In this document: one piece after another, positions 508 to 37,390 of the stretch
Numbering within the stretch: the first letter of the stretch is position 1
Layout of the letters: every line of letters begins with the position of its first letter
NCBI GenBank assembly: GCA_021740625.1
Contig: JAIOZK010000034.1
Location: 1-37,390 of the forward strand
Source: Bacteroidales bacterium
GTDB lineage: Bacteria; Bacteroidota; Bacteroidia; Bacteroidales; JAIOZK01
Direction: 5' to 3'
Length of the DNA: 37,390 bases
Notes under the pieces: generated by a model
Seen by the model: only the letters and a program-made list of their open reading frames with translations
The model's database searches: none
What the model was told of the DNA's origin: nothing
Position numbers and translations under genes: made by a program

Positions 508-3500
508 ATGAGTAAATTTACAAAAGTAAGTTTGTTGCTTCTGGTATTTCTGGTATCAGGAGTAGGTGTATTTGCACAGTCGCAGTACGAGATTTCCAAT
601 GAAAAGGAAAGAATGGCTGCTGAAATGCAAATGCTTCAAGAGAAGCATGGCCCTACAACGGTCGTGCCGCCCTCGAATGGAAGTCGCGCAACAGGTGACG
701 ATTGTTCTGATCCTATTGTTGTGAACATTCCTTCTGACCTTCCATTTTCAGATGTCGATCAAACGACATGTGGACGTGGAAACAATTACGATGCTACTTG
801 TTTGGGAAGTTATGATGGAGGTGAGGATGTTATTTATGAAATAACCCTCAGCGCGGATGCATCTTTGAGTTTTGCATTCGATCCACAAGGAACTACCTGG
901 ACTGGTATTGCATTGCTTGACGATTGTCCTGATGTAGGTAACTGCATCGTTTATGAAACCGGCTATTCCTCCGATCCGAGGGAACTGGTTGCAGACCTTA
1001 CAGCAGGAACATATTATTTTATGGCAGATACATGGCCCTCACCGGATTGTATCCCGAGTTTTAACCTGAATATCACCGAAGCAGGTGCTCCTCCGATTGC
1101 ATCATTCCCCTATTTTTATGACTTTGAAACAGGGATGTTTGCAAACGAAATGGAAGCCGTTGAAGCTGATGAGTCACATCTCGTTGTAAGTGATGAAGCT
1201 GGCTTTGGTTCAACCTATGGTGCCTTGTTTGATGGTGGTAGTTATTCCGGCTGGTCCGGAGGTTCTTCATCAACCACGCATGATCAGGCTTTCAATGACA
1301 ATACCGATCACATTGCTTCAATGAACATGATCGTTGAACCCAATGGCAGTGGTGACCTCATGCTAGAATTCGACCTGAAAGGTAATTACGGCTACGGAGC
1401 GAATTACTCCTGGTTCAGAGTACTGGTTGATGGTGTTGAAATTGCCGATATAAACGGAAATTCTTATTTCAATCCTGATAGTTACGATGGTGAAGGTGAG
1501 TTTGATCATATCGTTTATGACCTGACTCCTTACCAGGGATTGACAAGTTTTGAGCTGACTCTTCAATCTTCCTGTAAATACGAAATTGGTGGTTATCGCG
1601 ATGGTGATTACTGGATGGTTGATAATTTTGACCTTTACTTCCTGCAATTGGGAGATGTGGAAGGTTATACCTTTAATGGAGATGGTCTGATCGTTTCCGG
1701 TGCCTCTGTTGCAATTGAGGATGTTAACCAAACCCTTTCGGGTTCAGATGGTTATTACCTCCTTACTGGTATTCCAACAGGTCCACAGGACTTGCTGGCC
1801 TGGAAAGATGGCTACAACCTGGTAACCTATCCTGTTAATATTATCGGCAATGATGTTATTTATCAGGATATTACTTTGACTCAGCCAACCATGATCATCA
1901 ATCCCTTGCAGTTGGACGAAACCCTCAATCCGAATGAATTTCTGGAATCAAGTCTGGGTATTCTGAACAATGGTGATGGTCCGTTGGATTGGACTGCTGT
2001 TATCGAATATAATGATGATGGTGATGCTGCCAACGGAATCAGTATTCCGAAATTCCAGGGAAGCATCAACCATTCAGAACCCGATGCAGGATTGGCACCT
2101 GTTGATCCTGAAGGTCCTACTGGTGGAAGCGCTTTGAGAGGATCCGTAATTTTCGGACAGGAAGCGCTTGCCAATAATTTCATCGATTTTGATGTTGATG
2201 ATGTATCCAACTATTCTGTTGTCGGACCTTATACAGGAAGCGACTTTGTTAGTGGTATGGCTTTCCCCATCGGCGATGAGGAAAATGCTTATGCAACTGT
2301 GTACAACAGTACCACACTTTACATGGTGGAACGTTCTTCAGGAACAATGACAACAATAGGAAATATGGCTGGAGCCGTTTCCTTCAATGATATTACAATT
2401 GATCCGACAGATGGTACTTTGTACGCAACTGACGGAACAAATCTTTACACAATTGATCCTTCGGCACCCTCAGCAACCAATATTGGTGCACACGTGAATG
2501 CTGATCTCATGATCGGTATTGCATGTGATGCCGCAGGAGACCTCTGGGCCTTTGATATTGGCAATGATGAGTTTTATTCGGTTGACAAAGCTTCTGGTGT
2601 TGCTACTTCTATCGGCTCCATCGGATTTGATGCAAACTATGCACAATCCATGTTTTATGATGCCGATGCAGATGTGATTACACTGGCTGCCTACAACCTA
2701 TCAACTTCAGCCGCTGAGATCCGTGCCGTTGATGTTACAACCGGTAACACAACCATGCTGAGCTCTGCAAGCGGTAACGAAATTACAGGTTCTGCTATGC
2801 CTGTTGGACCTGCAGGTGGCGGTGGCTGGCTCAGCCTCGGGCAATACCAGGGGAATGTTCTCCCAAGTGGTGGTACATTCAACCTGCCGGTATATTTTGA
2901 TGCTACTGGTTTTGAAGCCGGTGATTATGTAACCGCAGATATTATATTCACTTCTTCACCCGATGTGGGTACCATTACAATTCCCGTTTCTATGACAGTT
3001 ATTGGAGATCCTCTTACACCTCCCGAAAATCTGGAAGCAACACTTGTTAGCCAGGCTACCGGTCAAGTAGATCTCACATGGGAATATAATAGTGACCTGG
3101 CTTTCCAATACTTCAGGGTTGAGAGAGATGGGGTATATATTGGATCTACAACCGATTTGTCTTTTACAGACATGCCTCCGGAATATGGTACATATTGTTA
3201 TACTGTAAAAGCAGTTTATGACGAAGGTACTTCTGCTCCGGCAGGTCCCGAATGTGTCGACTGGTTGGTTCCGGATCTTTGCTATGCACCTGCCAATCCC
3301 GAAGAATGGGTTTGGGAAGGATATACAGAAAACGTTGACCTCACACTCGAAAACTGTGGCGAAGGTATCCTGGAATTTTCATTCCCCGAATACGTTGCTC
3401 TTGACCTGCTCAATGATCCCAACATCAAACAAAATCAAACAGGTGATCCTTTTGCAGGACAAGACCTTACAGTTGAAAAGGGACAGAATGATCCCCGTGA

Positions 3501-6500
3501 AGGACAAGGATATCCTATCGTACTGGGTGCCGGTGGCCCCGATGATTTCGGCTATCTCTGGATTGATAGTGACGAAACAGGTGGACCCAACTTTAACTGG
3601 ATCGACATTTCAGCTACTGGTACTGAAGTTACAGGCTTGAGCGACGATAACCATGTTGGACCTTACCCAATTGGTTTTGACTTCCCATTCTATGGCGAAG
3701 ATAAATCTCAATTCTGGGTAAATTCAAACGGTACAATCTCGTTTATCGATGAGTATATTTCACTGAGTAACCAATCAATTCCTACAGGAAGTTCATCAGA
3801 CAATGACTTTATTGCATGGTTCTGGGATGATATGGACCCGGTTGGCTCAAATGTGTATTACGAAGTTGTAGACGGAAAATTGGTTATACAGTTTGATCAT
3901 TATTATGAGTATCCTGACGGAGGTGAATGGGTAGACGCTCAGATGATCCTTTATCCTTCAGGACAGATCAAAATTCAATATGATTATTTCGAACCTGGTT
4001 TCGACATGGACGGTATGACAATTGGTATTCAGTCATCCGATCCTGACCTCGGACTTCAGGTTGCTTACAATACAGAATATGCACACGACGGACTGGCATT
4101 GCTTTTCGACCTGCCGGCTCAATTCATTGTTGATGTTGAACCCGCAACAGGTTTCATTGGCTCAGGCCAGACCAAAGATATCGTTATGACATACAGTGCC
4201 GAGAATTACGGTCCTGGTACATATAACGAAGATCTTGAAATTCATTCAGATGCATTGCCACCGAATGATGTGGTATTTGTTCCGAATACAATGCATGTAT
4301 ACACACCTGCACAATTTGCCGGACAGGTAACAGATGCAAACACCGGTGCCCCGATCGAAGGCGCAGTTGTTACAGCTACATTCCTGCCTGATCCTGATAT
4401 CACATTCTCAACATCTACTGATCCCAACGGTGATTATTCTGTCATTGTTGACCCGGGTGATTATGATGTTGAATTTGCCAAAGCAGGTTATCAAAATATT
4501 ACAGTAGCTGATACAAACGCTGCAGAAGGTGTTGTTACACCGATCGACCTGGCGATGTACGAAGAACTCTACAAACCAGGTATGGTAACAGCCACAGTAA
4601 ATGATGATGATACGGAATGTCTGGTTGAATGGACCTTACCATGGGGCCCCTATGAGGTTCTTTATGATGACGGTTCAGCAGACGATTTCCTCGTATACAG
4701 TGTGACCGGAAATGCACATGCTGTTAAATTCACCCCTGCAGGTTATCCTGCAACCATTGCCGGTGGATCAGTATATGTAGGCGACGGTTCATTCCCGGTA
4801 GGTTCCGATTTCATGGGATCCACTTTTGGAATGGCTGTAATCGATGATGACGGAACAGACGGCATGCCCGGAACAGTTCTGGATTCAATCGAAGTTGTAG
4901 TCGATAACTATGGCTGGATCACATTTGGTGACCTGAGCGCAACCATCGATGATGGTGAATTCTACCTGGCAATGTTCCAGGGCTCGGTTCCTCCGAATGC
5001 TGCTCCCATCGGTATCGACCAGTCTATGCCAACTGTGTACCGCAGTTATTCATATATTGCTTCAGCCGATATGTGGTCACTTTCCGCATACCAGGATTTC
5101 ATGATCCGTGCAATTGTCAGTGGACCGCAATCAGGCGACAATGTTGTGATGAACAGCGAAACTGTTTATCCTCCAAAAGCAGTATATGAACATTATATTG
5201 CTACTGGTAAACCCAATGGTATACCCGGTACAGTGAAATCAGGAGAAATGCGCCCTGCAAATGATTACGCAATCGAAGGTGGACGTGATGCTACCGGCTA
5301 CAAAGTTGCACGCTTCAGCGGTTTCAATCCTGATAATACACCAACCGAAGGTGATACTTCTGTACTTCAGAACAATACTTCTGCCTTGAGTTATAATGAT
5401 GCAGCCTTTGGCGGCCTTCCCGAGGGATGGTATGCTTATGGCGTGGCAGCCCGTTACGACCAGGGAGGAAACGTATGGAGTGATTATGCCATCAGTAACA
5501 TTGTAGGTCATCTGAAAGAAGTTGCTGTAACCGTAAACGTTACAACAACTGATGGCTCGATAGCCGACAGTGTGGAAATCATCCTGACTGGCCTTGAATA
5601 TCCTTATGAAGTATATACAGCACTGACAGATGAAAGTGCCACACATACTTTCGATCCTGTATGGAAAGGTTTTTATGACCTCTGGGTATACAAACCCGGT
5701 TATGAAGCTGCCTTGTATGAAAATGAATGGATCAATGAAGATAAGATCTATGATGTTGTATTGGGTGAGAAGAAATATGCTCCTTTCAACCTCTATGTGG
5801 ATCCGTTAACTTCAATTGCTACCTGGAATGAACCTAGAATAACTGCATTGAGAGAGAATTTCGAAGGTGAGATGTTTCCGCCCGAGGGCTGGACTTCTTC
5901 AACCAATAGTTGTGGCTGGTTCCGTACCGAAGATGGCAGCAGTGATAGTTGGACCATCCCCGCATGGGACAGCTATTATGCAGTAGCTAACGATGATGCT
6001 TGTGGAAGTGGTGAAGACGGTAGCGTTGACTATCTGATCACTCCAGCCATGGATCTGAGAGAAACCGGTGGTTATTCACTGAAGTTTGATCAGTTCTTTG
6101 ATGGAGCATTCGGTCAGATGGCCATTGTAGAATACAGCCTCGACGGCGGTGCTACATGGGAAGTACTGGAAAACATGAGCCCGACAGCCGGAGAATGGAC
6201 AAGTGAAGAGATTGATCTCTCACAGTGGTCTGGCGACTGGAACATCCCGAACATCTGGATTGCATTCCACGCTGATGACGGCGGAGAATGGGCATCCGGT
6301 TGGGCCATCGATAATGTTGAAGTATCGGTTGGCAGCGACGGTGACTGGCCTCCAATGGGATATCATGTATTCCTGGATGACGCCTTCATCGCAGAAGTAC
6401 AGGAAGAAACATACACATACCTGAACCTCGTATACGGAACTGAATACACAGCAAGTGTAGGAGCATTGTATACTTCAGGCCTCTCAGAAAAGGATTATTA

Positions 6501-9204
6501 TACCTTTACTTCAGAATGGCTGTATCCTCCGGAAAATCTGGTTGGAGCAACATACGACAATGCCGTACATTTGATCTGGGATCCTCCATGTGCACCCTGG
6601 TTTGACGTGCTGTCAAGCGGACCGCGTGAGGAACACCCGAATCCGAATACGGAAGCATCACCCGTTTACAGGGAAATCAAGAATAACTATCCTGGCGCAA
6701 GAGACCTTTGGGATACACAATTTGAATTCCCCTGTGGAGATGCATCCGGTGAAGCAGGTATCGAATCTGATGGTAACTATATTTATACAACCAAGTGGAA
6801 TGCAGGAAACGGAACCTTCTTCCGCTACGAACTCGACGGAACCTTCCTGGGATCCTTCGTAGTATCCGGCGGAGCAATGGATATTCGTGACCTTGCATAC
6901 GACGGTGAATTATTCTGGGGCAGTAATGCCGGAACCACCGTATGGGGCATGAACTTCGACGACGAGATCGTGGAAGAAACAGTCAATGCTCCTGTAGCTG
7001 CACGTGCTATTGCATACGACGGAGACTTTGATGGTTTCTGGGCCAACAACTGGGATACAGAAATCACACTCTTCGATAAAGACGGTGTAACACTGAATAG
7101 CTTTGCAGTAGGTAGCTTTGGTAGCTATTACGGCTTTGCCTGGGATGAACAGCTTACGGGCGGACCATACCTGTATGGATTCAGCCAGAGTGGCAGTGGT
7201 GCTGTAATCGTTGAGATGGAAATTGCCACAGGAATGGAAACCGGTGTTACTTATGATGCTATCGGTTTCAGTACGACAGGAACTGGTCTTGCTGGTGGTC
7301 TTGCCATCACATCAGGCATAGTACCTGACAAACGTACCCTGCTTGGTATTGTACAGAACGAAACCATCTTCGGACTTGAGTTTGGAGACGGTGGAGGTAC
7401 ACCTACCCAGTGCAGCACGCCCGACAATGTGATCGGTTTCAATGTATACCGTAACGGAGAATTCCAGGAGTATGTAGAATACTTCGGTGAAGAACAGGTA
7501 GACTGGTGGCAGTACGAACTGATGCCGGCCTGTTACGATTACAGTGTAACTGCTGTATACGACCTGAGTCCTTACGGACAGTTTGGCGAAGAAGGCGAAT
7601 CCATGGAAGAAGGACCAGCTACAATCTGTGTATCTTACGGATTCCCGCTGCCATTCATGGAAGACTGGGAAGCCGGTACTTTCGAAGACAAAAACTGGGA
7701 AGTACAGTGTGAAAACTGGGATATCAGTTCAGTGATCGGAAACGACGGTAGCTCAGCCACATTCCAGTGGGATCCTGTACAGGAGAACTACGACTGTGGT
7801 ATTGTTACCTATCCATTGCTTGGCAATGATGTGATCGACGGTGATATTTACCTAGACTTTGATCTTAAGATCGACGACAGGTTCGATACCGTAACCACAG
7901 AATTGATGACCATCCGTGTATGGGCCGATGGCGAATGGACAGACATTACATCCTTTGCAGCCGAAGGCGACATGGATTGGGAATCACATCATATTGATAT
8001 TTCGGGTCCTGCCAAGGGCAATGATTTCCGTGTAGGCTTCTTTGCCAACGGAGAAAGTTCCCTGAACATTGATGGCTGGTACATCGATAACGTACATATC
8101 TATCAGCTTTGTGCAGAACCCTTTGACCTGACAAGCGATAAGGTGTACGAAACACAGGATATGGGCGTAGTAGAATTGAACTGGGTATCACCCGGAGCCA
8201 CCGTACAGGAATGGATTTCCTATAACGACGGTACTTTCGAAAATGCAATTGCATCTACCGAAGGCGGCGCCGGACTGGCTCAGATGTTTACACCGGATGA
8301 ATATCCTGTAACCATCACAGAAGTACGTTACTTTAACAGTTCATTCGAACAGTACATGCAGGAAAATGAGATCTGGATCCTGGCTGGCGACGGTGAAACC
8401 GTGCTGGCAGGACCTTACTATGTGGAAGATGGCCCGGCAGATGACTGGGTAAATGTTGACATTGATGATGTAACACTCAATGAAGGTACCTTCATGGTAG
8501 CAACATTCAATGTAAATGCCGGCGGACCTTACGTAGGTATGGACGACAGTTTCTATGATGGCTCATTGTACTTTGGTGCAATCGGAGACCTCACAGAAAT
8601 GGGAGAATTCGGATACTTCTATGTAGGAAGTCACGAAGCACTGGTTGAATATGAAATGGGCGACAATGTAGTTGTCAACTCAGTTCTGACAGCACCCCAG
8701 GCTTCGAACAACAACCAGATTTCCAACATTAGCTTGTCAGGCACAGCAGCAACAGCTCCTGCACCTGCAAGCAGGGATCTGACCGGATACAACATCTGGA
8801 GAAACGATGAGCTGATTGCCAGCAACTGGCCTGATGTAACATACAACGATACGGTTTATGATGCAAATGAATATTGCTATTACATCAGCGCGGTATATGA
8901 TCAATGCGAATCCGATACAGTGGGTTACGTTTGCGAAACCTTCTACACAAATATAGAAGACCCGACAAGCGGCGTACTGGATATTTATCCAAACCCGACC
9001 AAGGATAACGTAACGATCGAATCCCCGGCAGCCATCGAAAGGATTACCGTGATGAACTACGTTGGACAGGTAGTATACGACGCCACTGAGGTAGAAGAAA
9101 CCACAGTGAAGTTAGACGTATCAGCCTACGAATCCGGTGTATATTTCATCAAGGTAGAAACCGAAGATGGAATGACAACAGAGAGAATTACAGTGGCTAA
9201 ATAA
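508..9204 (+). CDS. Giant multidomain T9SS-secreted surface protein (adhesin-like)
   Basis: This 2898-residue secreted protein opens with a signal peptide (MSKFTK, then a LLLLVFLVSG core, cleavage after VFAQ) and ends in a T9SS type A sorting domain (about 2823-2898, starting LDIYPNPTKDN). In between I see: a PPC-like beta domain (about 64-190); MAM/cleaved-adhesin-like jelly rolls (about 200-380, 1781-1940 and 2381-2532, with FEGEMFPPEGW and A-IDNVEV signatures); carboxypeptidase-regulatory-like domains (about 380-455 and 1271-1335); two propeller-like tracts rich in YDG/SDG turns (about 577-770 and 2080-2290); and fibronectin type III domains (one at about 838-918). The cleaved-adhesin modules resemble those of gingipain/hemagglutinin proteins, which supports a role in surface binding. 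I see no catalytic motif. It is flanked by its own promoter and terminator, so it is probably monocistronic. The ligand cannot be read from sequence. Confidence 0.9.
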   Translation: MSKFTKVSLLLLVFLVSGVGVFAQSQYEISNEKERMAAEMQMLQEKHGPTTVVPPSNGSRATGDDCSDPIVVNIPSDLPFSDVDQTTCGRGNNYDATCLGSYDGGEDVIYEITLSADASLSFAFDPQGTTWTGIALLDDCPDVGNCIVYETGYSSDPRELVADLTAGTYYFMADTWPSPDCIPSFNLNITEAGAPPIASFPYFYDFETGMFANEMEAVEADESHLVVSDEAGFGSTYGALFDGGSYSGWSGGSSSTTHDQAFNDNTDHIASMNMIVEPNGSGDLMLEFDLKGNYGYGANYSWFRVLVDGVEIADINGNSYFNPDSYDGEGEFDHIVYDLTPYQGLTSFELTLQSSCKYEIGGYRDGDYWMVDNFDLYFLQLGDVEGYTFNGDGLIVSGASVAIEDVNQTLSGSDGYYLLTGIPTGPQDLLAWKDGYNLVTYPVNIIGNDVIYQDITLTQPTMIINPLQLDETLNPNEFLESSLGILNNGDGPLDWTAVIEYNDDGDAANGISIPKFQGSINHSEPDAGLAPVDPEGPTGGSALRGSVIFGQEALANNFIDFDVDDVSNYSVVGPYTGSDFVSGMAFPIGDEENAYATVYNSTTLYMVERSSGTMTTIGNMAGAVSFNDITIDPTDGTLYATDGTNLYTIDPSAPSATNIGAHVNADLMIGIACDAAGDLWAFDIGNDEFYSVDKASGVATSIGSIGFDANYAQSMFYDADADVITLAAYNLSTSAAEIRAVDVTTGNTTMLSSASGNEITGSAMPVGPAGGGGWLSLGQYQGNVLPSGGTFNLPVYFDATGFEAGDYVTADIIFTSSPDVGTITIPVSMTVIGDPLTPPENLEATLVSQATGQVDLTWEYNSDLAFQYFRVERDGVYIGSTTDLSFTDMPPEYGTYCYTVKAVYDEGTSAPAGPECVDWLVPDLCYAPANPEEWVWEGYTENVDLTLENCGEGILEFSFPEYVALDLLNDPNIKQNQTGDPFAGQDLTVEKGQNDPREGQGYPIVLGAGGPDDFGYLWIDSDETGGPNFNWIDISATGTEVTGLSDDNHVGPYPIGFDFPFYGEDKSQFWVNSNGTISFIDEYISLSNQSIPTGSSSDNDFIAWFWDDMDPVGSNVYYEVVDGKLVIQFDHYYEYPDGGEWVDAQMILYPSGQIKIQYDYFEPGFDMDGMTIGIQSSDPDLGLQVAYNTEYAHDGLALLFDLPAQFIVDVEPATGFIGSGQTKDIVMTYSAENYGPGTYNEDLEIHSDALPPNDVVFVPNTMHVYTPAQFAGQVTDANTGAPIEGAVVTATFLPDPDITFSTSTDPNGDYSVIVDPGDYDVEFAKAGYQNITVADTNAAEGVVTPIDLAMYEELYKPGMVTATVNDDDTECLVEWTLPWGPYEVLYDDGSADDFLVYSVTGNAHAVKFTPAGYPATIAGGSVYVGDGSFPVGSDFMGSTFGMAVIDDDGTDGMPGTVLDSIEVVVDNYGWITFGDLSATIDDGEFYLAMFQGSVPPNAAPIGIDQSMPTVYRSYSYIASADMWSLSAYQDFMIRAIVSGPQSGDNVVMNSETVYPPKAVYEHYIATGKPNGIPGTVKSGEMRPANDYAIEGGRDATGYKVARFSGFNPDNTPTEGDTSVLQNNTSALSYNDAAFGGLPEGWYAYGVAARYDQGGNVWSDYAISNIVGHLKEVAVTVNVTTTDGSIADSVEIILTGLEYPYEVYTALTDESATHTFDPVWKGFYDLWVYKPGYEAALYENEWINEDKIYDVVLGEKKYAPFNLYVDPLTSIATWNEPRITALRENFEGEMFPPEGWTSSTNSCGWFRTEDGSSDSWTIPAWDSYYAVANDDACGSGEDGSVDYLITPAMDLRETGGYSLKFDQFFDGAFGQMAIVEYSLDGGATWEVLENMSPTAGEWTSEEIDLSQWSGDWNIPNIWIAFHADDGGEWASGWAIDNVEVSVGSDGDWPPMGYHVFLDDAFIAEVQEETYTYLNLVYGTEYTASVGALYTSGLSEKDYYTFTSEWLYPPENLVGATYDNAVHLIWDPPCAPWFDVLSSGPREEHPNPNTEASPVYREIKNNYPGARDLWDTQFEFPCGDASGEAGIESDGNYIYTTKWNAGNGTFFRYELDGTFLGSFVVSGGAMDIRDLAYDGELFWGSNAGTTVWGMNFDDEIVEETVNAPVAARAIAYDGDFDGFWANNWDTEITLFDKDGVTLNSFAVGSFGSYYGFAWDEQLTGGPYLYGFSQSGSGAVIVEMEIATGMETGVTYDAIGFSTTGTGLAGGLAITSGIVPDKRTLLGIVQNETIFGLEFGDGGGTPTQCSTPDNVIGFNVYRNGEFQEYVEYFGEEQVDWWQYELMPACYDYSVTAVYDLSPYGQFGEEGESMEEGPATICVSYGFPLPFMEDWEAGTFEDKNWEVQCENWDISSVIGNDGSSATFQWDPVQENYDCGIVTYPLLGNDVIDGDIYLDFDLKIDDRFDTVTTELMTIRVWADGEWTDITSFAAEGDMDWESHHIDISGPAKGNDFRVGFFANGESSLNIDGWYIDNVHIYQLCAEPFDLTSDKVYETQDMGVVELNWVSPGATVQEWISYNDGTFENAIASTEGGAGLAQMFTPDEYPVTITEVRYFNSSFEQYMQENEIWILAGDGETVLAGPYYVEDGPADDWVNVDIDDVTLNEGTFMVATFNVNAGGPYVGMDDSFYDGSLYFGAIGDLTEMGEFGYFYVGSHEALVEYEMGDNVVVNSVLTAPQASNNNQISNISLSGTAATAPAPASRDLTGYNIWRNDELIASNWPDVTYNDTVYDANEYCYYISAVYDQCESDTVGYVCETFYTNIEDPTSGVLDIYPNPTKDNVTIESPAAIERITVMNYVGQVVYDATEVEETTVKLDVSAYESGVYFIKVETEDGMTTERITVAK

Positions 9205-36974: not shown

Positions 36975-37005
36975 TTGCATAACAAAGAAACAAAATATAT
37001 CTTTG
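36975..37005 (+). promoter_or_regulatory. Strong plus-strand promoter driving the tRNA-like repeat array
   Basis: TTG at 36975-36977, 20 bases, then TATCTTTG at 36998-37005: a near-ideal Bacteroidota promoter. It is divergent from era. The only thing downstream on this strand within the window is the 125-bp repeat array. Confidence 0.75.
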
Positions 37006-37090
37006 CACACCCGTTTGAGAGCGGGAAAAGTTCTGAGAAATATAGATTTTAAGATATATTGCATTGTCCGCCGAAATGAAACGGAGGCGG
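37006..37090 (+). promoter_or_regulatory. rRNA-operon-like leader
   Basis: GAGAGCGGGAAAAGTTCTGAGAAAT (starting at 37017; quoted in part as GCGGGAAAAGTTCTGAG) resembles the leader that follows rRNA promoters in Bacteroidota, including an AGTTCT boxA-like core. It then runs into a degenerate inverted repeat (CCGCC near 37068, GGCGG near 37086) and the repeat array. The likeness is from memory, not from alignment. Confidence 0.4.
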
Positions 37091-37174
37091 GCGGGGTGGA
37101 GTCCCGATAGTTATCGGGAGTAGCTCGTTGGGCTCATATCCGCCGGCTGGCGGACAGTGGTTCGAATCCTCGCA
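37091..37174 (+). pseudogene. Initiator tRNA-Met-like sequence, copy 1, with palindromic insertions
   Basis: The 5' GCGGGGTGGAG, the core GTAGCTCGTTGGGCTCATA (37120-37138, anticodon CAT at 37135-37137) and the T-loop GGTTCGAATCC (37159-37169) match the bacterial initiator tRNA plan. The D-loop, however, is an 18-base palindrome (37102-37119). The 3' anticodon stem and variable loop are replaced by TCCGCCGGCTGGCGGA (37139-37154). The T-stem and 3' acceptor strand are shortened (CCTCGCA), leaving about two T-stem and three acceptor pairs. It is unlikely to be a working tRNA. Confidence 0.7.
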
Positions 37175-37215
37175 AAGAAAAAGGTTCATTAAATAATAGC
37201 GCAAAAAGAAATATT

Positions 37216-37299
37216 GTGGGGTGGAGTCCCGATAGCTATCGGGAGTAGCTTGTTGGGCTCATATCCGCCGGCTGGCGGACAGTGGTTCGAATCCTCGCA
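37216..37299 (+). pseudogene. Initiator tRNA-Met-like sequence, copy 2
   Basis: Same structure as copy 1, shifted by 125 bases. The D-loop palindrome is perfect here (TCCCGATAGCTATCGGGA, 37227-37244) and the second palindrome lies at 37264-37279. The second base is T, which weakens the acceptor stem further. Confidence 0.7.
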
Positions 37300-37340
37300 A
37301 AGAAAAAGGTTCATTAAATAATAGCGCAAAAAGAAATATT

Positions 37341-37390
37341 GCGGGGTGGAGTCCCGATAGCTATCGGGAGTAGCTCGTTGGGCTCATATC
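37341..37390 (+). pseudogene. Initiator tRNA-Met-like sequence, copy 3 (partial)
   Basis: First 50 bases of the third unit, with a perfect D-loop palindrome at 37352-37369 and the CAT anticodon at 37385-37387. The sequence stops at the window edge. Confidence 0.7.

Follow-up and report, generated by a model that had tools for sequence, protein, structure and literature searches.

The window that we analysed, a stretch of 37,390 nt, comprises positions 1-37390 of contig C8 of a Bacteroidales genome of 4.02 Mb (G000; 52 contigs, assembly 95% complete), and it ends in a series of altered tRNA copies. These form the only tandem array in the window, at 37091-37390, to which TRF assigned a period of 125, 2.4 copies and 97% matches without indels, confirming the two full copies and one partial copy described in the initial annotation. 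The copies (37091-37215, 37216-37340 and the partial 37341-37390, all on the + strand) are 94-100% identical to one another, and an initiator-tRNA core is present in both full ones (GGGCTCATA, TTCGAATCC). Neither ARAGORN nor Rfam at the gathering score called a tRNA anywhere in the window, and the covariance-model scan that had been proposed thus places the units outside functional tRNAs; the genome has 40 matches to RF00005, 38 of them over the cut-off, and the window units are absent among them. A known structured RNA was rejected as the identity of the units on the basis that Rfam gave no match at the gathering score in the window, and only two tRNAs in four further loci. At the other end of the window, 508-9204 encodes a protein of 2898 aa in which a CarboxypepD_reg domain and a tail for secretion sorting (PF18962, Por_Secre_tail) were recognised.

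Upstream of the array on the + strand lies a putative promoter of the Bacteroidota type (36975-37005), predicted from sequence, in which TTG at 36975-36977 is separated by 20 nt from TATCTTTG at 36998-37005, in agreement with what we take to be the Bacteroidota consensus. Its TATCTTTGCACACC is identical at the corresponding locus of a species of the same genus (L316 in G001). The array had been said to stand behind a strong promoter, a description that we cannot uphold, as a sigma-70 scan gave 2 sites compared to 0.8 (sd 0.9) in shuffled sequence, which is approximately chance. The leader between promoter and first copy (37006-37090, + strand) contains an additional imperfect hairpin (TCCGCC at 37067-37072, GGCGG at 37086-37090) that, judging by eye, the sister species does not have.

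Each unit carries two hairpins, one of 18 nt in the D-loop, TCCCGATAG(T/C)TATCGGGA, and one of 16 nt after the anticodon, TCCGCCGGCTGGCGGA. The former was matched three times in the window where 0.01 matches were expected and the latter four times (two places, both strands) where 0.13 were expected. In the first copy with its spacer (37091-37215; defined by TRF, repeat comparison and own-genome search), the D-loop hairpin TCCCGATAGTTATCGGGA at 37102-37119 replaces the 5 nt CAGTG of the intact gene, the swap being placed at tRNA nt 13-17 from the matching copy on contig C43. The anticodon-stem hairpin at 37139-37154 replaces tRNA nt 37-46 (ACCCAAAGGT; scored on the same C43 copy), taking the place of the 3′ strand of the anticodon stem and the variable loop. 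What follows is a leftover T-arm piece, CAGTGGTTCGAATCC, without the 3′ acceptor strand (37155-37169), and a spacer into the second copy (37170-37215) that appears leader-like by eye (GTTC..TTAA.., with ATATT at its end). The second copy with its spacer has its hairpins at 37227-37244 and 37264-37279, and the third, which is cut by the contig end, has one at 37352-37369. The units are therefore initiator-tRNA copies that have lost the 3′ acceptor strand and in which hairpins stand in place of part of the D-loop and of the 3′ anticodon-stem strand. These observations support the earlier view of tRNA-derived repeats amplified once their shared lesions were in place. The lesions are indeed present in every unit; they are not products of random decay, since they consist of precise hairpin swaps.

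The last 53 bases of the window are identical to the first bases of contig C43, and extension of the contig, which had been suggested as a check, carries the array onward. C43 begins with the rest of the broken copy; an intact initiator tRNA, preceded by the same spacer, comes next at 128-200, and then a terminator-like stretch. Further 3′ are one more broken copy, which has hairpins at the anticodon and in the T-loop, and the remnant of a GIY-YIG frame with a stop after 27 codons. If the join between C8 and C43 is true, the fMet locus comprises three broken copies upstream, one intact copy and one broken copy downstream, although repeats could be collapsed. The initial annotation had anticipated that intact initiator tRNAs might lie beyond the window and expose the lesions as sequencing errors; an intact gene does lie there (C43:128-200), but the lesions are not sequencing errors, because hairpins occupy the same two positions of the tRNA in a congeneric species that was assembled independently, and their sequences differ from those seen here.

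In that species (G001), the orthologous fMet locus has the same neighbouring gene start, in a gene that is Era-like by its GTPase and KH domains, and the same promoter sequence as our genome. A single broken copy there precedes the intact initiator tRNA, after which come a terminator-like stretch and a GIY-YIG frame that extends as far as the contig end. The hairpins of this broken copy, TCCCGATAACAATCGGGA and TCCGCCTCAGGCGGA, occupy the tRNA positions seen in our genome and differ in sequence, and the T-stem of this copy agrees with the intact copy of its own species and not with that of the other species, which suggests either that the copies evolve together or that the same sites were hit twice. 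By eye, the broken fMet copies of both genomes match the intact one apart from the hairpins, with two changes in the second window copy, whereas differences from the intact gene are visible in the Gly-CCC copies of our genome and in the Lys copy of L146. We compared occupied and plain loci in three genomes of the order besides our own, one of which (G002) gave no match; the locus is occupied in G000 and G001, and in the 500 nt inspected in G003 it is a plain gene. Upstream broken copies thus number one in the sister species, about three in our genome and none in G003.

Six tRNA loci of our genome are alike. Besides fMet, a second tRNA with a CAT anticodon has array-type copies on C31 and a piece at the end of C1; Gly-CCC (C6) has four copies upstream with a period of 78, whose 5′ halves drift and which have unique flanks inside the contig; Ser-GCT (C14) has at least three copies upstream with a period of 82; Arg-CCG (C18) is surrounded by copies and accompanied by two GIY-YIG genes, the hairpin there being a 20-nt insertion at nt 22/23; and C37 has two copies at the contig end, the intact gene being absent from that contig. 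Among the 38 tRNAs over the Rfam cut-off, Gly-CCC, Ser-GCT and Arg-CCG each occur once and CAT twice. Judged by eye, 13 of the 17 exact TCCGCCGGCTGGCGGA sites in the genome are within tRNA copies and 4 are outside, as are 2 of the 5 exact sites of TCCCGATAGCTATCGGGA. One exact site of the latter (18 nt; L014, C39:3120-3137) may be in a coding region, possibly as an in-frame palindrome. We also noticed a dispersed element of about 200 bp, apparently unrelated to tRNA (L047, L048, L095, L096 and L097; on C3, C4, C36, C47 and C43), with the layout ..GAGCAGC..GTATCAAAAG.AAAAACTTG-hairpin-TTAAA.., which carries TCCGCCTACTGGCGGA and other hairpins. Gain of such hairpins is therefore not tied to tRNA or to GIY-YIG genes. 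Finally, the leader of an intact Gln-CTG tRNA (L071, C9:19702) has two hairpins (TCCGCCGATGGGCGGA and one that has a GGGCGGAA arm), and no tRNA copies occur within the stretch inspected.

A pattern combining TCATA with a hairpin was found in 3 of 99 genomes of the order and a pattern combining the D-arm with a hairpin in 7 of 393, our genome included in both cases, while the reversed control gave 0 each time. A scan of 84,980 species with the pattern AGCTCAGNNGGT, 1-30 nt, TCCGCCNNNNGGCGGA, run without a control pattern, matched 97 stretches, of which we read 80 loci: 50 from Bacteroidota, 14 from phyla of the Patescibacteria group, 2 from Balneolota, 1 from Kiritimatiellota, 3 from Actinomycetota or Pseudomonadota, and 10 unassigned by name, some of which bear Patescibacteria titles. 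The Actinomycetota and Pseudomonadota loci (L168, L174 and L190) look like chance matches and were counted as misses. A cognate intact tRNA was present within 600 nt at 61 of the 80 loci and a GIY-YIG ORF at 29. Bacteroidota loci with the latter usually begin with the broken copies, followed by the intact tRNA, GIY-YIG and sometimes one more broken copy; in Patescibacteria, a broken Lys copy is often followed by GIY-YIG and an intact Lys tRNA. Isolates with such loci include Niastella populi, N. caeni, Longitalea luteola, Sunxiuqinia dokdonensis, Pedobacter sp. BS3 and Chryseolinea lacunae. Loci of this type thus exist for several tRNA isotypes in both Bacteroidota and Patescibacteria. The initial annotation had missed this breadth of isotypes and phyla, along with the hairpins, the GIY-YIG frame and the intact copy, all of which required other contigs and other genomes. 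In a Chryseobacterium MAG (L142), one otherwise complete Gly-CCC gene has a hairpin, and in a Bacteroidota MAG (L216) Val occurs as four broken copies, and the last of these has three hairpins; neither locus has a cognate intact tRNA near.

We tallied hairpin sites in loci with clean collinear flanks, giving each locus one vote; these votes are slightly inflated, since the same genome appears in two collections for L206/L234, L110/L235 and L084/L263. The hairpin was at nt 23-32 in 6/6 Gly-CCC loci, at 25-34 in 2/2 Val-CAC loci and in 7 Val-GAC loci (with three other sites in single loci each), at 24-31 or 25-32 in 14/14 Lys loci, at 39-48 in 7 elongator Met loci and at 37-46 in 3 initiator loci. 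Asn had it at 26-35 in 3 loci and at four other sites besides, five in all, and Arg-CCG and Arg-ACG showed pure insertion at 21-23. Most swaps exchange one strand of the anticodon stem, with 8-10 nt mostly replaced. The hairpin site thus follows the isotype in most loci scored, with the reservation that most of these loci came from a pattern that admits only hairpins with TCCGCC arms lying 1-30 nt beyond the GGT of the D-loop; where loci were chosen without that pattern, the usual site was found in 2/2 for Gly-CCC, 2/4 for Asn and 1/2 for Val-GAC. Stem arms vary by locus (TCCCGA, TCCGCC, CCTGCC, TTCCGT, TCCGTC, GATCCG and others), some being dispersed in the genome, and they differ even between copies of one locus (Asn in G001). 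It is therefore the pairing that is kept and not the sequence.

The GIY-YIG ORFs encode about 80-90 aa and often adjoin the tRNA copies on the same strand. All four of the proteins submitted matched PF01541 (1.4e-17 to 7.3e-16), one of them also T5orf172, and NCBIfam gave the submitted proteins no name above its cut-off. Their sequence kin in the PDB are UPF0213 (8.6e-11), SLX1 (3.3e-6), whose chains are longer than the tRNA-linked proteins, and I-TevI (0.0059). Y5, Y16, G18, R26, H30 and E63, which are presumably the catalytic residues, are invariant among 14 GIY sequences. We know of no tRNA-linked elements among the GIY-YIG domains of UPF0213 or SLX1. A group I intron with a GIY-YIG ORF was considered and set aside, as Rfam detected no intron RNA core in the window or in four further loci. 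Phages and plasmids were likewise rejected as carriers: tblastn with one GIY protein found no phage record at E 1e-5 and a single distant match among plasmids, from Azospirillum.

Within the hairpin loci, a test of GIY-YIG proximity gave a weak result (Fisher p = 0.038), because its background consisted of neighbouring tRNAs from the same locus, and we therefore searched in the reverse direction, from nuclease to tRNA. A profile of 14 GIY-YIG proteins from hairpin loci matched 50 of 149 genomes of the order at 1e-15; this search is independent in method and not in origin, because the profile was built from hairpin loci. We fetched 82 GIY loci and kept 80, dropping two with no GIY match of at least 40 model positions. 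ARAGORN placed a tRNA within 300 nt of 51 of the 94 GIY domains in these loci, on the same strand in 51/51 cases; four of these tRNAs have an undetermined anticodon and are possibly altered copies. There were 59 tRNAs in the 80.8 kb near GIY domains compared to 0 in the 99.4 kb farther off on the same stretches. The number of ARAGORN tRNAs near GIY was exactly one at 42 of the 80 loci and more at 7, and 31 had none on the stretch. Counting intact and broken genes together, 65 of the 80 loci had a tRNA and 15 had none that was recognisable. A hairpin of at least 6 pairs, a few of which may be tRNA stems, was present in 101 of 128 broken pieces and in 7.2 after dinucleotide shuffling. Two GIY-YIG subclades have no recognisable tRNA adjoining (L298, L305, L307, L308, L311 and L314; L271, L281, L290 and L299).

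Across host families, GIY-YIG lineages are tied to tRNA isotype. On a GIY tree that had few columns and many weakly supported forks, and on which 65 of 90 rows were labelled (the labels of up to 18 loci being set by hand from tRNA fragments), isotype changed 17 times compared to a shuffled mean of 40.6, and none of 200 shuffles was as low. A tree that included Patescibacteria and other named loci gave 20 isotype changes compared to 59.4 after shuffling. The isotype was shared with the nearest labelled GIY from another host family in 46 of 65 cases, which span 34 families; shuffling by locus gave a mean of 11.0 and a maximum of 25 in 500 shuffles. A comparison of these 17 isotype changes with 50 host-family changes was dropped, as the family label has many more states.

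Our best reading of such loci is that one working tRNA stands among copies killed by hairpins, and we consider it probable that the array is debris of a homing-type GIY-YIG element nested in the initiator-tRNA gene. The nuclease would cut its cognate tRNA gene, and repair by recombination from a homologous copy would duplicate the leader and tRNA in tandem, as with phage SegB. Copies with hairpin swaps would neither be re-cut nor work as tRNA, leaving one functional copy beside the element, and recombination between broken copies would remove the element and leave the cell without that tRNA. At the fMet locus of our genome, the nuclease is already dead, and the array would be a fossil that kept growing, from one upstream copy to three given a true join. 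Several points count against this reading. At about 80 aa, the protein has no part outside the GIY-YIG domain that would bind DNA, which leaves target specificity unaccounted for; the intact tRNA adjoining the nuclease should be a target too; and, as noted above, fewer than half of the hairpin loci have a GIY ORF. None of the entries for Gly-CCC (6), Gly-GCC (5) and Val-CAC (4) in the hairpin-locus table has the ORF; in the reverse search, GIY did accompany Gly-CCC at one locus (L239).

Similar arrangements are known from other systems. SegB of phages T4 and T6 is described as a free-standing GIY-YIG homing endonuclease that cuts inside tRNA genes and drives tandem amplification of the tRNA-nuclease segment through recombination of the 5′ region of the tRNA with the 3′ region of the nuclease; amplification requires catalytic residues and recombination proteins, and the motif RAWTSGAAC, which we read as the T-loop on the other strand, occurs at 23 of 83 sites (PMC13096335). 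A GIY-YIG nuclease beside tRNA genes and tandem tRNA arrays are common to both systems; SegB differs in being phage-borne, its amplified tRNA is full-length and raises tRNA dosage, and its arrays collapse without selection (PMC13096335). A word search of the whole text of this paper found no mention of palindromes (PMC13096335). Passages on mobile ORFs of fungal mitochondria (Glomus, Allomyces) describe an endonuclease ORF in an essential gene together with a duplicate piece that restores the gene, so that the displaced native piece is left behind and a working copy is kept; these ORFs (LAGLIDADG or GIY-YIG) are in mitochondrial protein genes, and tandem arrays or hairpin swaps do not appear in the passages (PMC3630166). 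The same layout of nuclease ORF, duplicated target piece and working copy was found here, given the tRNA material at 65/80 GIY loci.

It is possible, if rather unlikely, that a minimal SLX1-like GIY-YIG family uses the tRNA gene fold as its address and attacks an extruded branched structure, each event leaving a hairpin-exchanged copy, in the manner of an addiction system. The part exchanged would be either a loop close to the central junction or one anticodon-stem strand, and the sole working copy of an essential tRNA would be fenced by dead ones.

Other explanations were weighed against the nested element. With a similarly low probability, neutral decay may account for the loci, with host-wide palindromic repeats inserting under relaxed selection, for example in tandem tRNA duplicates, and the GIY-YIG gene an independent hitchhiker. 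Short hairpins dispersed in the genome, sometimes inside genes, are known as Rickettsia RPE and REP elements, and the absence of GIY from many arrays, as well as like hairpins outside tRNA copies (TCCGCCTACTGGCGGA in the dispersed element, 4/17 TCCGCCGGCTGGCGGA sites and 2/5 TCCCGATAGCTATCGGGA sites), are consistent with such insertion. Here, however, the 8-10 nt are usually replaced rather than only inserted into, the site mostly follows isotype (in loci limited by the search pattern), the arms vary by locus and a nuclease gene often adjoins. Moreover, nearby tRNAs are on the GIY strand in 51/51 cases, GIY lineages track isotype, and G001 and G087 have such loci despite only 3 TCCGCC(N4)GGCGGA sites in each genome.

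It is doubtful that the hairpin copies are a working RNA of the tRNA operon, either a leader or decoy that tunes the amount of the downstream tRNA or its processing, or a sponge for tRNA-cutting toxins or phage factors. The copies sit between the putative promoter and the intact tRNA and are probably co-transcribed, pairing is kept while the arms vary, and the window unit has a folding energy of z = -2.28, with 5 of 200 shuffles as low. On the other hand, two hairpins account for most of this low energy, few relatives show the pattern, the 5′ halves drift in the Gly array, and upstream copies range from one to about three within the genus and are missing in G003. Refolding into a tRNA-like shape was rejected as the function of the unit: GCGGGG closes with CCTCGC, yet z is only the value just given, and units of the Gly type appear by eye to lack such closure. 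The decaying tRNA cluster and the structured RNA offered in the initial annotation both seem weaker readings than a nuclease-linked element. An assembly artefact, another source that had been raised, or a contig mis-join is highly improbable, since, although the window array and several others are at contig ends and copy number may be collapsed, the C6 array has unique flanks inside its contig, an ortholog exists in an independently assembled species and isolates carry such arrays (Niastella, Pedobacter sp. BS3, Sunxiuqinia dokdonensis).

To our knowledge, tRNA genes are usually treated as untouchable save as integration sites. If the nested-element reading holds, essential tRNA loci of Bacteroidota and Patescibacteria have repeatedly been rebuilt around a tiny nuclease, with the extra copies killed by hairpin swap. 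We found no description of hairpin-bearing tRNA arrays or of their hairpin sequences in the open-licence PMC literature, nor of GIY-YIG homing in Bacteroidetes tRNA genes or a link between GIY-YIG and tRNA in the Candidate Phyla Radiation; tRNA-nested GIY-YIG loci with hairpin-killed tRNA copies thus form a widespread class that is undescribed in the literature searched. If cutting occurs as proposed, these loci would be cellular counterparts of phage SegB and a naturally occurring example of a core translation gene taken hostage by selfish DNA, and they would account for part of the small GIY-YIG genes, which were matched in 50 of 149 genomes of the order. They would also be a warning to annotators about broken tRNA calls, as ARAGORN reports some copies as Phe-AAA or undetermined. 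Altered copies with such calls are seen at a Val-TAC locus of G003 (L246, C3, 831-2572), which has two intact Val-TAC genes, two GIY-YIG genes and many near-complete tRNA copies in which the anticodon arm is replaced by an AT-richer hairpin, TTCCGTCTTAAAACGGAA.
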